Shown here in pieces: positions 4,017 to 10,766 of a stretch of DNA of 64,000 nucleotides (position 1 is the first letter of the stretch; the number at the start of each line of letters is the position of its first letter). The position numbers and the translations under genes are program-made. This stretch comes from an uncultured Oscillospiraceae bacterium (GTDB lineage Bacteria > Bacillota > Clostridia > Oscillospirales > Oscillospiraceae): NCBI GenBank assembly GCA_947589545.1, contig CANQBA010000009.1, positions 1 to 64,000 on the forward strand, in the 5' to 3' direction. Below the pieces are notes generated by a model. It did no database searches and was not told the DNA's origin. It saw only the letters and a program-made list of their open reading frames with translations.

Positions 4017-5477
4017 TTATGGGTTATTGACGATCCCGGCGAAAACGGGGACGCCGTTGTTCGTGACCGTGAAGAGGAAGGGCCGGTCAAAGGTGATGTC
4101 CACCTCGTCGTCGGGCGGTTCGGCGGAGCCGCTCATCACCGCCACCGTATAGGCCGCGCCCACACAGCCCTCCTCGTCGATGCTCACCCGGGCCGCGTGG
4201 AGGATCTGAGAGAGGAAGACGTTGTTTTCCGGCGTGAGGCCCTCCCCCATGACGGGGGAAAAATTGGCCTTCGCCGGGTCGAACACCTCCGCGACCCCCA
4301 GGGCCTTCAGCTTCGGCCCGATCTCGCCGTTCTCCGTCACGTCGAATTTGGGCAGGGACAGGTTGACCTTCAGATATTTGCTCCCCACCGCGTCCCTGTC
4401 CACCGTGTCCGTCAGATAGCTCACGGCGGCGGGGTCGGCCAGGATCTCCTCTATGCTGACGCCCTCGTCCGGGAGCAGCAGCCGCATGGTGCCGCCGTAC
4501 TTAAAGTCTTGCCTCACGGCGGAGAATTTCTCCGACCAGGAGTACCACGCGTCGGAGCTGTTGTGCATGAATTCACACGCCGTATCCCCGGCGGGGGCGT
4601 GAAACACGCCGGTATCCGTTTTTTTGGGGTTGAAGCCGGCGTCCCACTTGTCCTCGAAAAGCACCGTCGTAGCCAGAGCCAGGGCGGTATCCGCGTCCAG
4701 ATCCACCCCGTTCGCCGCGTCCTCCAGGAGCCCGCCGGTGTGGGCGTTCAGCCATTTTTGCAAAAAGCCGTTATAGTCGCCGCCGCCCATCTCCCCCCGG
4801 TAGGAGGAGGCGTAGTAGCTCTCCGCCAGGCGTTCCAGGGGCGCGGTCATATAGTCTGTGTCGTCCCGGAGCCACACTGACGCGGCCAGCCCCAGGGTGT
4901 AGCTGCCGTCGTCGTTATAGAGGGCGTTCCACACCCGGTTGGCTTGGGCCCGCAGGGCCTCCACGCTGTCCGCGCCCAGGGCGTCCAGAATCTCCTGCCG
5001 GCTCGTCCCCTCCGTGATCTCCGACAGCATCCCCAGCGCCAGATAGACGCTCACCGGTGAGCAGACGGTGTTGCCCTCCCCTGCGCCCGTCAAAAGGGCG
5101 GGCACCAGTCTGCGCTCCCAGACCGCCAGGGCGTCCCACTCCTCCTGGGTCAGCTGCCGTGCCAGGAGAGCCTCCAGCCAGGCGTGAAACTGCTCCTCGT
5201 TCACTTCCAGGCCAAGGTCGTCCATCTCCGGGTACCGGGGCCGCTCCGGGTATATTGCCTCCGCCAGCGTCTCCGCCTCTCTGCCGGAGGGGGTGGGGCC
5301 GCCGGGATTTCCGCCCCGCTGTCCCGCCAGGATCGCCACGCTCCCGGTGATGAGCGCCACCGCCAGCACCGCCGCCAGAGCGGCGGACCAGCGCCTTCTC
5401 TTTTTCGTCTTCTTTGCGTTATCGATGAGGTCGTCACGGATATGCGTGACGCCGTCGTACAGATCTTCAGGCTTCAT
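4017..5477 (-). CDS. Membrane-anchored serpin (serine protease inhibitor)
   Basis: 486 residues. A short, charged cytosolic N-terminus (1-29), one membrane helix (about 30-52), a linker and a serpin domain (about 100-486). Serpins trap serine or cysteine proteases by cleavage of a reactive-centre loop. The hinge begins with Glu435-Glu436-Gly437. Counting from the hinge, and aligning the following Pro-Pro with antitrypsin, puts the scissile bond at Ser451-Ala452, suggesting elastase-like targets. Hinge position P14 is Cys and P12 is Gly instead of the usual Thr and Ala. The FDRPFLF strand near the C-terminus is conserved. The ATG at 5477 has GGAGG upstream and overlaps the sigma gene by 11 bp. 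Serpins are known from gut Clostridia (the siropins of Eubacterium siraeum); coupling to a sigma factor suggests a protease-sensing or anti-sigma role (inference). Confidence 0.88.
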   Translation of the reverse strand: MKPEDLYDGVTHIRDDLIDNAKKTKKRRRWSAALAAVLAVALITGSVAILAGQRGGNPGGPTPSGREAETLAEAIYPERPRYPEMDDLGLEVNEEQFHAWLEALLARQLTQEEWDALAVWERRLVPALLTGAGEGNTVCSPVSVYLALGMLSEITEGTSRQEILDALGADSVEALRAQANRVWNALYNDDGSYTLGLAASVWLRDDTDYMTAPLERLAESYYASSYRGEMGGGDYNGFLQKWLNAHTGGLLEDAANGVDLDADTALALATTVLFEDKWDAGFNPKKTDTGVFHAPAGDTACEFMHNSSDAWYSWSEKFSAVRQDFKYGGTMRLLLPDEGVSIEEILADPAAVSYLTDTVDRDAVGSKYLKVNLSLPKFDVTENGEIGPKLKALGVAEVFDPAKANFSPVMGEGLTPENNVFLSQILHAARVSIDEEGCVGAAYTVAVMSGSAEPPDDEVDITFDRPFLFTVTNNGVPVFAGIVNNP

Positions 5478-6030
5478 TGGTAAACTCCTCCTTCTCCAGG
5501 ATCTCCCGCAGGGCGAGGCGCAGACGCCGGAGCCGCTGGGCCAGGGTGTTGGCCCGCTCCCCCGCGTCCCGTGCCAGCTCCTCCAGGCTCTCCCCGTAGA
5601 AATAGCGGCGGACAAACAGCGCCCGGTCCCGCTCCGGGAGGGTGTCCAGCCACCGGGAGAGGATACGTCCCAGCTCCCGGCCCTCGATCTCCCGCTCCAC
5701 GTCCGCCCCGCCGGGGATGGCCTCGGCCAGCTCGTCAAGCTGGGCCTCCAGGGCCGCGTAACGCTTTTCCGCCCGGTTTTTCCGAAACCGGGAGATGGCC
5801 AGGTTCCGCGTCAGCCGCCCTAAAAACGCCTTCAGGGACTCCGGCCTCTCCGGCGGGATGGCGTTCCAGGCGGCCAGATACGTGTCCGTGACGCACTCCT
5901 CCGCGTCCCGCCGGTCGTCTAAGAGACGGGAGGCCAGGGCGGTCACAAACCCGCCGTATTTGGCTCTCGTCTCCCCGATGGCGCTCTCGTCCCGGTCAAA
6001 ATAGAGCTTTACGATCCGGCTGTCCTCCAC
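5467..6030 (-). CDS. ECF-type RNA polymerase sigma factor
   Basis: 187 residues with region 2 (about 10-85) and region 4 (about 125-180), the two-domain layout of extracytoplasmic-function sigma factors. Region 2 carries the segment LGRLTRNLAISRFRKNRAEK, as in many Clostridia sigma factors paired with a membrane protein. The start is a GTG at 6030, preceded by GGGGAGG at suitable spacing; upstream in-frame codons have no ribosome site. The stop overlaps the serpin start, so sigma factor and serpin are co-translated. The serpin gene occupies the position where an anti-sigma factor normally lies. Confidence 0.88.
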   Translation of the reverse strand: MEDSRIVKLYFDRDESAIGETRAKYGGFVTALASRLLDDRRDAEECVTDTYLAAWNAIPPERPESLKAFLGRLTRNLAISRFRKNRAEKRYAALEAQLDELAEAIPGGADVEREIEGRELGRILSRWLDTLPERDRALFVRRYFYGESLEELARDAGERANTLAQRLRRLRLALREILEKEEFTNEA

Positions 6031-6121
6031 GCGCCCACCTCCCCGCTCTTTGGAATCGTGTATGCTCGACGGCCCGTCACCCTCCAAGTCGCAAACCGGG
6101 GACGGATATGACAGATTTTCT

Positions 6122-6820
6122 TTAAAAATCCCCCTCCGCCTCCAGAAGCGTCCTCAGCTTATCCAGCGCCTTCTTCTCGATGCGGGAGACATAGGAGCGG
6201 GAGATGCCCAACTTTTCCGCCGTCTGCTTCTGCGTAAGTCGCGGCCCGCCCAGAAGGCCGTAGCGGAGCGTCACCACCTGCCTCTCCCGGGGCTCCAGAC
6301 CGTTCTCCACAAAATACCGGAGCCGCCCGTAGACCTCCTGGGAGCTGAGCCGTTCAAAGACGTCGTCCTCGGTGCAGATGACGTCCATCAGGGAGAGGTC
6401 GCCCCCGTCCCCGTCCCCGTCGATGGAGTCGGACAGGGATAGATCTCCGGCGCTCTTGCGCTGGCTTCGGAAATACATCAGGATCTCGTTTTCAATGCAC
6501 CGGCTGGCGTAGGTGGCAAGCCTGACCCCCTTGTCCGGCCTGTAGGTGGAGATCCCCTTGATGAGGCCGATGGTGCCGATGGAGATGAGGTCGTCCTGAT
6601 CTCTGGTCCTGGTGTAATATTTTTTCACAATGTGCGCCACCAGGCGCAGATTGTGCTCGATAAGGGTGTTCCGGGCCTCCTGATCCCCGGCGGCGGCCCG
6701 CTCCAGGCACTCCCGCTCCCGCGCCTCCGAGAGGGCCTTGGGGAAGGAGCCGGCGGGGTTGGTCACCCGCAGAAGCAGGAAGGGGTAGCTGAGAAGTGAG
6801 GCGAAAGCAATAGACAGCAA
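6122..6820 (-). CDS. sigK: Sporulation sigma factor SigK
   Basis: 232 residues, close to the 241 of Bacillus SigK. Diagnostic segments are ARNTLIEHNLRLVAHIVKKY, the region-2 core DLISIGTIGLIKGI, the segment ATYASRCIENEILMYFRSQR and the C-terminal helix-turn-helix LGISRSYVSRIEKKAL. SigK directs late mother-cell transcription in sporulation. The TTG start at 6820 has GGTGG upstream. The first 20 or so residues are hydrophobic, like the cleaved pro-sequence of pro-SigK. The frame is continuous, with no skin-type insertion. No clear sigma-E promoter was found upstream. Confidence 0.93.
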   Translation of the reverse strand: MLSIAFASLLSYPFLLLRVTNPAGSFPKALSEARERECLERAAAGDQEARNTLIEHNLRLVAHIVKKYYTRTRDQDDLISIGTIGLIKGISTYRPDKGVRLATYASRCIENEILMYFRSQRKSAGDLSLSDSIDGDGDGGDLSLMDVICTEDDVFERLSSQEVYGRLRYFVENGLEPRERQVVTLRYGLLGGPRLTQKQTAEKLGISRSYVSRIEKKALDKLRTLLEAEGDF

Positions 6821-8225: not shown

Positions 8226-9271
8226 ACAGCACCGGTAAATCGCCCCGCTCCAAGCTCTGGTGGTCCCTCCTCTTCTTCGCCATCGCGGGCTTCAGCGTCT
8301 ATTTCATCGTCTCCCGGAGCCGGGATTTCACCCTGGCCTCCTTCTCGGAATTCATTCGCCGCGCCGACCCTCTCTGGCTTCTTTGCGCCCCGCTCGCCAT
8401 GCTCGTCTACATCGTCAGCGAGGGCGAGGCGGTGCGGGCCGCCGTGACGGCCTTCGGCTTCCGCCCCAGTCACCGTCAGGCGTTCATATACGCCGCGTCT
8501 GACATCTATTTCTCCGCCATCACCCCCTCCGCCACAGGCGGCCAGCCCGCCTGCGCCTGGTTCATGATGAGAGACGGCATCCCGGTGCTCATCTCCACGG
8601 TGGCCCTGCTCATCAACCTCACCATGTACACCGCCTCCATCCTGGTGCTGGGCCTTGTGGCGCTGGTGACCCAGCCGGAGGTGATGGGCTCCTTCGGCGC
8701 ACTTTCCAAGCTCCTGATCGCCGTGGGCTTCGCGGCCCAGACGGCGCTGGCGGGCTTTTTCCTCCTGCTTTTGTACAAGGAAAAGCTTCTCCACCGGATC
8801 TGCTCCGGGGCCATCCATCTGGCCTGCAAGCTCCGGCTTCTCCGCCACGAGGAGCGCCGGCAGGAATCCCTGAACCGGCACATGGAGACGTATCTGCGGA
8901 GCGCGAAAATGGGCTTGGCGCACAAAAAGGCCCTGGTGCGCGTCTTTTTCCTCAATCTTCTCCAGCGGTTCTCGGTGCTGTGCGTCCCGTTCTTCCTGTG
9001 TCTGGCCTCCGGCGGCGGCTTTGTAAGGGCCGCCAGGGTCTGGGCCGTCCAGTGCTTTACCGTGCTGGGCGCCACCTTCGTCCCCATCCCCGGCGGCATG
9101 GGTGTGTCGGACTATCTGATGCTGGACGGCTTCGGCAGCTTTCTCTCCCCGGCGGATCTGGTGGATTTTGAGCTTCTCACCCGCGCGCTCTCCTTTTACG
9201 TGTGCGTTGTGTTCTGCGGGATCGCGACGCTGGTCAAATTTATACTGTTAAAAAAGAGGGACAAAGCATGA
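8222..9271 (+). CDS. LPG-synthase-type transmembrane protein (YbhN/UPF0104 family)
   Basis: 349 residues with about eight membrane helices. The family is the membrane flippase-like part of MprF without the C-terminal aminoacyl-transfer domain. Recognisable segments are the TPSATGGQPA loop near residue 100 and the late PIPGGMGVSDY loop. It starts at the ATG that overlaps the PAP2 stop codon and ends in the same way over pssA. Members have been linked to lipid translocation. Lying between a PAP2 protein and PE synthesis enzymes, it may move a phospholipid or its precursor across the membrane (inference). Confidence 0.82.
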   Translation: MNSTGKSPRSKLWWSLLFFAIAGFSVYFIVSRSRDFTLASFSEFIRRADPLWLLCAPLAMLVYIVSEGEAVRAAVTAFGFRPSHRQAFIYAASDIYFSAITPSATGGQPACAWFMMRDGIPVLISTVALLINLTMYTASILVLGLVALVTQPEVMGSFGALSKLLIAVGFAAQTALAGFFLLLLYKEKLLHRICSGAIHLACKLRLLRHEERRQESLNRHMETYLRSAKMGLAHKKALVRVFFLNLLQRFSVLCVPFFLCLASGGGFVRAARVWAVQCFTVLGATFVPIPGGMGVSDYLMLDGFGSFLSPADLVDFELLTRALSFYVCVVFCGIATLVKFILLKKRDKA

Positions 9272-9957
9272 TCGGATTTTATGACTACACGGTGATCCTC
9301 ACCTATCTGAGCCTGCTCTCGGCCTGCGCGGGGATCATCGTCTCCCTGGCCGGGCCCGGGCACCCCTACATAGGCACCTTCTTCCTCCTGGTCTGCGGCC
9401 TGTGCGACGCCTTTGACGGCAAGGTGGCAAGGCGAAAGAAGGATCGGACCGACGCGGAAAAGGCCTTTGGCATCCAGATCGACTCCCTCTCCGATCTTGT
9501 GGCCTTCGGCGTCCTGCCGGTAGCCATCGGCGCCGCCATGCTGCGCTGGTCCCCCATCATGCTCTGGGTGCGAGACAACGCCCCCGGCGCGGTTTACGCC
9601 GCGGTCAACGTGGCGCTGATGGCCATCCTGATCCTCTACGCCCTGGCCGCGCTCATACGTCTGGCGTACTTCAACGTCACCGAGGAGGAGCGCCAGCGGG
9701 TGGAGGGCGGCGCCCGGAAATATTACCAGGGAATGCCCGTCACCACCGTGTCCCTGATCTTCCCCTTCATCCAGCTTCTCCAGTACATCATCCCCGCCGA
9801 CGTGACCATGATGTACTTCGCCACCGCCGTACTCTGCGGTCTCGCCTTCCTGATCCCCGTCCAGATCCGCAAGCCGGGCCTCCGGGGCATTTTGCTGATG
9901 GTGGCCATCGGCGCGGTGGAATTTTCCCTGATGCTGGTGGGGAGGCTCCTGAAATGA
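9268..9957 (+). CDS. pssA: CDP-diacylglycerol--serine O-phosphatidyltransferase
   Basis: 229 residues, an integral membrane enzyme that makes phosphatidylserine from CDP-diacylglycerol and serine. The CDP-alcohol phosphotransferase signature is complete: Asp47, Asp50-Gly51, Ala54-Arg55, then Gly68, Asp72 and Asp76 in the segment FGIQIDSLSDL. The interval between Ala-Arg and Gly is 12 residues, longer than the usual 8-9 but familiar in clostridial PssA. The start at 9268 overlaps the previous stop, and its stop overlaps the psd start. Its product is the substrate of the next gene product. Confidence 0.93.
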   Translation: MIGFYDYTVILTYLSLLSACAGIIVSLAGPGHPYIGTFFLLVCGLCDAFDGKVARRKKDRTDAEKAFGIQIDSLSDLVAFGVLPVAIGAAMLRWSPIMLWVRDNAPGAVYAAVNVALMAILILYALAALIRLAYFNVTEEERQRVEGGARKYYQGMPVTTVSLIFPFIQLLQYIIPADVTMMYFATAVLCGLAFLIPVQIRKPGLRGILLMVAIGAVEFSLMLVGRLLK

Positions 9958-10766
9958 CGGCCCTGGGATTCCTCTACGGCACCCTTCCGGGGCGGCTGTG
10001 TCTGAAGGCCCTGACGCGCCCCGGCCTCTCCCGGGCTGTGGGCCGTTTTCTGGACGCCCCTGCCTCAAAAATTCTCATCGACCCCTTTGTGAAAAGAGCG
10101 GGGATCGACCTGTCTCAATTCGAGTCTGACAACTTCACCTGCTTCAACGACTGCTTCTCCCGGCGGATCAAGGACGGGAACCGGCCTGTGGACGCCTCCC
10201 CCCGCGCCCTGATCTCCCCCTGCGACGGGCTTTTGTCGGTCTACGCCATCACGGAGGACACGGTTTTCCCCGTCAAGCAGTCCGCCTACACCCTGCCGGC
10301 GCTTCTGGGCGGCGACCCCGTCTATCACCTTTTTGAAAACGGTACGGCCCTGATCTTCCGGCTGTGCGTGGGCGATTACCACCGTTACTGCTATGTGGAT
10401 TCCGGCGTAAAGGGCGAAAACATCCGCCTCCCCGGCGTCCTCCACACGGTTCGTCCCGTGGCCCTGGAGCGCGTGCCCGTGTTCATCCAAAACACCCGTG
10501 AGTACACGGTCATCGACTCAACCGCCTTCGGCCCCCTTGTCCAAATGGAGGTGGGGGCGCTGCTGGTGGGGCAGATCAAAAACCATCACGGCCCCGGCCC
10601 CGTCACCCGCGGTCAGGAAAAGGGCATGTTCCTCTACGGCGGCAGTACCGTTATCGTCCTTCTGGGGCGGGGTCGCGCCGCCCTGGATCCGCTCTATCCG
10701 GATCACTCCCGCCTGGGGATCGAAACGCCGGTGCGTTACGGCCAGCGGATCGGCTTCGCCACGTAA
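9954..10766 (+). CDS. psd: Phosphatidylserine decarboxylase proenzyme
   Basis: 270 residues. Converts phosphatidylserine to phosphatidylethanolamine. The proenzyme cuts itself at a conserved GST-type motif to create a pyruvoyl cofactor; here it is Gly229-Gly230-Ser231-Thr232 in FLYGGSTVIVLL, giving a large beta chain and a short alpha chain beginning at Ser231. Other family landmarks are ISPCDGLL and the histidine-bearing GDYHRYCY segment. The start overlaps the pssA stop by 4 bp. Last gene of the operon, followed by a terminator at 10841. Confidence 0.93.
   Translation: MTALGFLYGTLPGRLCLKALTRPGLSRAVGRFLDAPASKILIDPFVKRAGIDLSQFESDNFTCFNDCFSRRIKDGNRPVDASPRALISPCDGLLSVYAITEDTVFPVKQSAYTLPALLGGDPVYHLFENGTALIFRLCVGDYHRYCYVDSGVKGENIRLPGVLHTVRPVALERVPVFIQNTREYTVIDSTAFGPLVQMEVGALLVGQIKNHHGPGPVTRGQEKGMFLYGGSTVIVLLGRGRAALDPLYPDHSRLGIETPVRYGQRIGFAT

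Follow-up and report, generated by a model that had tools for sequence, protein, structure and literature searches.

A serpin borne on a short-tailed membrane protein behind an ECF sigma factor: a probable anti-sigma factor and candidate protease sensor in an uncultured Oscillospiraceae bacterium

Serpins are repeatedly coupled to anti-sigma-like tails, and the coupling is real; one instance of it lies in a 64,000-nucleotide stretch of DNA from an uncultured Oscillospiraceae bacterium (hereafter the window; positions 1 to 64,000 of contig CANQBA010000009.1, assembly GCA_947589545.1), where an ECF sigma factor gene runs into a gene for a membrane-anchored serpin. Our preferred explanation, to which we assign a probability of roughly 0.6 as a whole, is that the two products form a sigma/anti-sigma module with the serpin outside, operating as a protease-driven, self-amplifying circuit. 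The components of this explanation differ in strength: the tail-bearing serpin protein very probably acts as an anti-sigma factor, the balance leans towards the serpin being the sensing part, and the idea that its stressed-to-relaxed change is the trigger is a tentative one, at slightly under even odds. The features of the locus are as follows.

5467..6030, minus strand: ECF sigma factor gene (187 aa; GTG start at 6030)
4017..5477, minus strand: gene for tail, membrane helix and serpin (486 aa; ATG at 5477)
5391..5477, minus strand: cytosolic tail, residues 1-29; basic, candidate anti-sigma element
5319..5390, minus strand: membrane helix, residues 30-53 by sequence (31-53 in the model, at low pLDDT)
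5370..5378, minus strand: LAA (XAA) motif within the membrane helix, residues 34-36
5109..5318, minus strand: stalk and N-terminal segment, residues 54-123 (A.YP...YP, a consensus of the alignment of relatives)
4020..5108, minus strand: serpin domain, residues 124-486, by Pfam
4104..4175, minus strand: hinge and reactive loop, residues 435-458 (P17 to P7')
6088..6113, minus strand: conserved promoter-like element TGTCATAT-N13-GCGAC, upstream of the sigma gene
6067..6079, minus strand: palindrome-like element between the promoter element and the start codon, recognised by eye

The sigma product matches Pfam Sigma70_r2 (E 4e-13) and Sigma70_r4_2 (E 3e-7) as well as TIGR02937, and its make-up of regions 2 and 4 without region 3 places it among the ECF sigma factors; the GTG start agrees with the start of aligned relatives. 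An initial sequence-only reading had described a sigma stop overlapping the start of a gene for a short tail, one membrane helix and a serpin. Both points held: the two genes share 11 bp (5467-5477), and the open reading frame, Pfam and the sequence itself agree on the architecture. The serpin gene, lying directly behind the sigma gene and coupled to it, occupies the position expected of a gene for an ECF anti-sigma factor. The same reading had proposed a search of genomes for further sigma-serpin pairs, and the pairing proved recurrent, 47 of 52 measured pairs overlapping by 1 to 14 bp. We rejected a chance overlap because the pair is conserved across many genomes. The 11 loci that make up the nearest named records belong to MAGs of uncultured Oscillospiraceae from isolates called Lapin, a name that we read as denoting rabbit gut.

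Directly upstream of the sigma gene and on the same strand, the window carries a SigK/SigE-like sporulation sigma gene (6122-6820), the end of which is still recognisable by eye upstream in several orthologs. Elsewhere in the window a phospholipid gene cluster is found, in which a CDP-alcohol phosphatidyltransferase adjoins a phosphatidylserine decarboxylase (9202-10766), the pair being preceded by a PAP2 protein and an LPG_synthase_TM protein.

Judged by alignment, the tail goes with the sigma factor and not with the serpin, because unrelated ectodomains carry alignable tails. The window's genome (3.83 Mb, 148 contigs) encodes two serpins, each directly behind an ECF sigma gene and each carrying the tail. 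A sigma profile gave 14 close matches in this genome (E < 1e-57, the window's own included), which we refer to as type A; each of the 13 with readable downstream DNA shares 4 or 11 bp with the gene that follows, the fourteenth (C76) running to a contig edge. Each of the 13 downstream partners begins with an alignable tail and helix, typically LxxAIGxIDDxxIxxA followed by basic residues and then a hydrophobic helix, yet only two of them have a serpin and 11 have none. When a partner at a contig edge (C123) is included, Pfam at E 0.01 assigns Serpin to 2 of 14 partners, and BNR, FG-GAP_3 and Sortilin-Vps10 to one each. Twelve more tail-and-helix proteins of the genome (L134-L145) have non-serpin ectodomains, mostly without a Pfam name, and constitute a putative family of sensors.

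A tail profile (A2), built solely from serpin proteins and then run over the genome, returned 11 matches at E <= 2e-4, of which 10 lie directly behind a type-A sigma gene (two of these being rows of the profile) and the eleventh lies at a contig edge, without room for a sigma gene. Most of the thirteen weaker matches (E 0.002 to 0.97) cover just the helix; C20, one of the thirteen, also follows a sigma gene. The partners at C33 and C37 were not recovered by this profile at E up to 1. Each of the three type-A sigma matches in two further genomes of the family (two in G159, one in G106) has a tail match within 30 bp downstream; five additional tail matches in the set G106, G159 and G110 reach model positions 15-49 only, and G110 has a serpin and no type-A sigma at E 1e-30. 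Within the window's genome, distances among sigma factors correlate weakly with those among tails (r 0.25, p 0.023) and not with those among ectodomains (r -0.03, p 0.60). A comparison of the tail with Pfam gave no convincing domain and no known anti-sigma family.

Tail and sigma also occur together across the genus, where 30 of 34 genomes (the window's own included) match the serpin protein. With 2 truncated and 8 second-in-tandem serpins left out, the 46 first-position serpins comprise 33 with tail and sigma, 1 with tail only, 3 with sigma only and 9 with neither (p 2e-6). The single tail-only case (L073) has an intact tail and no upstream sigma. Two of the sigma-only cases (L033, L034) have a lipoprotein serpin first behind the sigma gene and then a tailed serpin in the same operon; the third (L035) has a lipoprotein serpin behind the sigma gene, and tail DNA that is unjoined to the second serpin ORF. 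Serpins occur in 133 of 250 genomes of the family, and the 86 first-position serpins counted in other genera include 15 with both, 0 with tail only, 1 with sigma only and 70 with neither (Fisher p 7e-16), the 90 family loci being a non-random sample (the 30 best serpin matches and 60 hand-picked among the matches listed) and the count omitting two duplicates (L233, L244), three truncated and six second-in-tandem serpins. The sigma-only case (L250) belongs to a second partner type, type B, described below, and the 70 with neither include four with a type-B sigma and tail and one with a type-B tail alone. Counting types A and B together gives 20, 1, 0 and 65 in the same order, a count that is circular for type B, the tail model having been made from the same rows. 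Among the 65 serpins without tail or sigma of either type, 55 fit a loose lipobox pattern.

Independent pairs on the serpin tree gave, for types A and B together (n=7), a mean of 5.8 concordant, 0 opposite and 1.2 ties (median p 0.03), again circular for type B through the origin of its tail model, and for type A alone (n=5) 4 concordant, 0 opposite and 1 tie (p 0.125). Three membrane serpins without an adjacent sigma gene (L245, L074, L075) have tails that are shortened or lack the motif; they are possible cases of natural decoupling, to which L073 is a counter-example. Separately, at locus L168 a lipoprotein serpin stands in third place behind a sigma factor and its tailed non-serpin partner, like an output of that system; at another locus, L174, the sigma gene lies at the same distance from the serpin.

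These distributions bear on whether the tail has any anti-sigma role. The tail and helix could simply anchor the serpin, the gene overlap doing nothing beyond co-expressing a sigma factor and an effector serpin; regulators and effectors are often found together in operons, and L073 does have a tail without a sigma. We consider this very improbable, given that the tail is common to unrelated ectodomains and tracks the sigma factor, that serpins without a sigma mostly have other, lipoprotein-like N-termini, and that the tail is predicted to adopt a two-helix fold beside the sigma factor in the model of a related pair.

That model concerns locus L039, whose sigma factor and tail were folded with AlphaFold as one chain. 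The tail formed two helices (pLDDT 86-88, linkers < 50, pTM 0.79), two of the five models having a lower mean pLDDT of 75-76, in an artificial read-through chain with no aligned tail rows and with trimmed sigma rows (alignment A8; alignments A5, A6 and A7 were discarded for misplaced tail, serpin or sigma-end rows). From this model we infer contact of the L039 tail with its sigma factor. A shape search with it matched ECF structures, mainly over residues 1-185, and so carries no information on the tail. In the model of the window's serpin protein the tail is unordered (pLDDT 38-48; 10-residue means of 38-52 over tail and helix), and residues 71-130 have 10-residue means of 78-92, the segment from helix to serpin being well ordered from about residue 71.

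A tail that binds the sigma factor might still activate or recruit it instead of inhibiting it, and the two modes have the same signature in sequence and predicted fold. An activating membrane partner of an ECF sigma factor would, however, be a rarer case than an anti-sigma factor. Anti-sigma factors are often encoded with ECF sigma factors, those of class I alone standing beside about one-third of ECFs (PMC7406223), and we regard activation as the least probable of the readings considered, with only a slender chance of being correct.

The putative promoter gives some indication of what the sigma factor controls. The consensus TGTCAYAT-N9..15-GCGAC was sought in front of 18 close relatives of the window's sigma gene (L239 and L243 stand outside this count): it is exact in 12 and has at most two changes in 5, within 115 bp, and in the eighteenth (L064) it is exact and lies farther upstream. 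It is missing at L040, at L041 and at 6/6 sigma genes checked from other clades. Across all loci collected, 32/32 exact matches precede a type-A sigma gene (12 distinct sequences, overlapping loci being counted), and in 1.60 Mb the true pattern matched 31 times, its reverse once and neither of two scrambled versions at all. A scan of the window's genome returned the window site and one with a longer spacer (G000:C34), which precedes a small ORF of HTH-like appearance by eye; with one mismatch allowed, it returned the window site and one inside an ORF (G000:C8:1599). The element is thus nearly confined to the sigma-serpin operon in this genome, and for this reason the main target of the sigma factor is likely to be its own operon; no wider regulon was supported by the promoter-pattern search of the genome. 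TGA-GGGCC-TCA stretches resembling the 6067-6079 palindrome were found by eye in orthologs, and this element is perhaps an operator or leader element.

The membrane helix carries a further shared trait. An XAA motif, taken as a hydrophobic residue followed by Ala-Ala within the first 14 helix residues, is present in 60/60 tailed serpins (shuffles: mean 27, highest 37), in 13/14 partners in the window's genome (shuffles: mean 7, highest 11) and in 25/65 lipoprotein signal regions, and A35 and A36 are the sole invariant columns across the 14 partners. XAA motifs of RsgI anti-sigma factors have been called reminiscent of a tag recognised by ClpXP (PMC12203970). The window's genome also encodes an RseP-like M50 peptidase (G000:C17), so that it has both the RseP-type protease and the helix motif of regulated intramembrane proteolysis systems; the presence of the protease weighs little, since M50 proteases were found in 14/14 control genomes. 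The shared tails, the co-occurrence of tail and sigma, the fold of the L039 tail, the promoter element and the XAA motif together lend good support, wholly comparative in kind, to the anti-sigma half of the initial proposal, namely that the serpin protein may double as anti-sigma factor and sensor.

As to the ectodomain, PF00079 (E 2.8e-52) aligns over positions 10-370 of its 370 with residues 124-486, indicating a full-length serpin. An AlphaFold model made with 48 aligned relatives has a mean pLDDT of 81.7, with most of the body near 90, and a fold resembling solved serpins, cleaved, latent and native forms among them; tengpin is the top PDB match by sequence. Inhibitory serpins have a hinge with Gly at P15 and small residues at P12-P10, and the window's hinge has G437, G440, A441 and A442 at these positions. 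The loop numbering proposed at the outset stands, with P17 = E435, P14 = C438 and P12 = G440, and counting from E435 reproduces the predicted P1-P1' bond, S451-A452. The Cys at P14 had been thought unusual, and in this the early reading was mistaken: at P14 the 54 type-A tailed serpins have Cys 28 times, Val 16 times and Thr 6 times, and the 67 lipoprotein-like serpins have Thr 43 times and Cys 9 times. Gly at P12 occurs in 22/54 type-A tailed vs 1/67 lipoprotein-like serpins, and all 54 type-A tailed serpins have Gly at P15 and Ala, Gly or Ser at P12-P10. On these residue counts the Cys is a clade trait, and the window's hinge is predicted to be of the inhibitory type. The suggestion that an odd hinge makes this a non-inhibitory serpin was unsupported by the same counts.

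It is plausible, by analogy, that protease attack alters transcription, because tailed serpins keep an inhibitory-type hinge and the anti-sigma ectodomains of RsiV and RsgI are sensors. In the mechanism that we propose, the ECF sigma factor would be held at the membrane by the two short tail helices. Attack on the reactive loop by a protease outside would take the serpin from the stressed to the relaxed state and thereby open the N-terminal segment or stalk to a site-1 protease; the RseP-like protease would then cut within the membrane, and the exposed XAA end would send the tail to ClpXP, freeing the sigma factor. The freed sigma factor would work mainly on its own promoter, as the distribution of the element suggests, and more serpin would be made, the outcome being a self-amplifying circuit in which protease attack leads to more inhibitor. 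Release of the ordered segment between helix and serpin would be an attractive link in this chain, by analogy with tengpin, whose native state is stabilised by an N-terminal tail bound to the serpin body (PMC8233489).

Alternatively, the tail may be an anti-sigma element and the serpin no shape-change sensor at all, being instead an effector, or an inhibitor of the site-1 protease that cuts the stalk, which would be freed once proteases in the medium had used the serpin up. Several observations suit such an arrangement: serpins without tail or sigma are common in the family and fit the loose lipobox in 55 of 65 cases, the lipoprotein serpin first behind the sigma gene in L033-L035 implies that an inhibitor can be an output, and the hinge is of the inhibitory type. 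Nevertheless, L033 and L034 keep a tailed copy despite the lipoprotein copy in the same operon, and the partners of sister sigma factors place other ectodomains at this position, like the RsgI sensors (PMC12203970), so that we hold this alternative to be unlikely.

The coupling is wider than type A. In type B, another ECF sigma gene directly precedes serpins with the tail YKRANDxLxPxxxxVERAV (L224, L238, L242, L250, L254); at L245, a type-B serpin with a shortened tail, no sigma gene was found at the locus. Type C was seen in two genomes (L264, L265), both from a single genus that belongs to a different family of the class; here a third ECF sigma factor is paired with a serpin protein whose cytosolic part is longer and whose stalk is rich in Pro and Thr. 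In type D, seen at one locus (L283:1439-3507), a protein with HTH_3 and sigma region 4, in which sigma region 2 was not found, precedes a tail, a helix, a Pro/Thr-rich stalk and a serpin. Type A itself is also represented in two further families, by L294 and L295; among the matches listed outside the genus, these alone start at model position 1 or 2, and the class-wide search scored at most four candidates per genome.

On a tree of 67 type-A sigma factors, 51 of them serpin-linked, a single serpin-linked clade was rejected (AU p 3.3e-12), and serpin linkage shows 11 label changes, at least 3 of them forced; the type-A tail on a tree of 148 serpin domains shows 13 changes, at least 8 of them forced. 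Such changes may be gains or losses, and separate gains of the coupling are favoured by the fact that types B, C and D have tails of different kinds. We would suggest, with rather more doubt than conviction, that bacteria use serpins as single-use transmembrane receptors for proteases, in which the stressed-to-relaxed change on loop cleavage frees the sigma factor, and that such receptors evolved on several occasions, involving three kinds of ECF sigma factor and one HTH/sigma-region-4 protein.

The anti-sigma class closest in size may be class II, exemplified by CnrY and its sigma factor CnrH (PMC7406223), although this assignment is unproven. The class II domain is short, has two helices and wraps the sigma factor, and two helices are predicted for the tail here; we can show no sequence match between the two, and the CnrY ectodomain is not known to be a serpin. 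Another comparison is with RsgI-SigI of Clostridium thermocellum, where SigI is not known to be of this ECF type. As in the present system, the RsgI paralogs share a cytosolic domain of a single kind and a single membrane helix, mostly with an XAA motif, and diverge in their sensor ectodomains (PMC12203970). It differs in that the tail here has only about 30 aa, the RsgI N-terminal domain was not found by Pfam (E 0.001), and the sensor types named in the figure legend of that paper include no serpin (PMC12203970). The class I anti-sigma domain (ASDI) consists of four helices and averages about 100 aa (PMC7406223), whereas the tail here has 29 residues and two short predicted helices. In RsiV-SigV of Bacillus subtilis and others, the anti-sigma ectodomain is the receptor for an enzyme from outside, and stepwise cleavage frees the ECF sigma factor; once it has bound lysozyme, the RsiV ectodomain is accessible to signal peptidase (PMC4183432). 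The ectodomain here is instead a serpin, the only domain that Pfam gives at E 0.001, and no lysozyme-binding ectodomain of RsiV type was found at that threshold. As far as its sequence indicates, the module would work like RsiV or RsgI but belongs to neither.

Among bacterial serpins, some prokaryotic members have been classed as membrane anchored (PMC8233489). Tengpin and other group T serpins have the serpin domain in common with the protein described here, and the sections of the same source drawn on report no sigma partner for them; the word 'sigma' is absent from it (PMC8233489), and likewise from two other papers on serpins. In the sections of PMC3990059 drawn on, serpin and anti-sigma are mentioned apart from each other. 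Our literature searches, with most subscription journals outside their scope, found among the titles listed no report of a pairing of a serpin with an ECF sigma or anti-sigma factor.

Serpins are known as inhibitors, and those of prokaryotes have few assigned roles. Should one of them prove to form the outer part of an anti-sigma factor, the large change of shape that serpins undergo would be a candidate for a signal across the membrane. Were this true, gut commensals would sense host or microbial proteases directly and respond with more inhibitor, by means of a small and probably autoregulated system. Beyond the serpins, tails that can be aligned across many unrelated ectodomains suggest that the Oscillospiraceae possess a family of candidate anti-sigma factors with short tails, one that lies outside any Pfam model.
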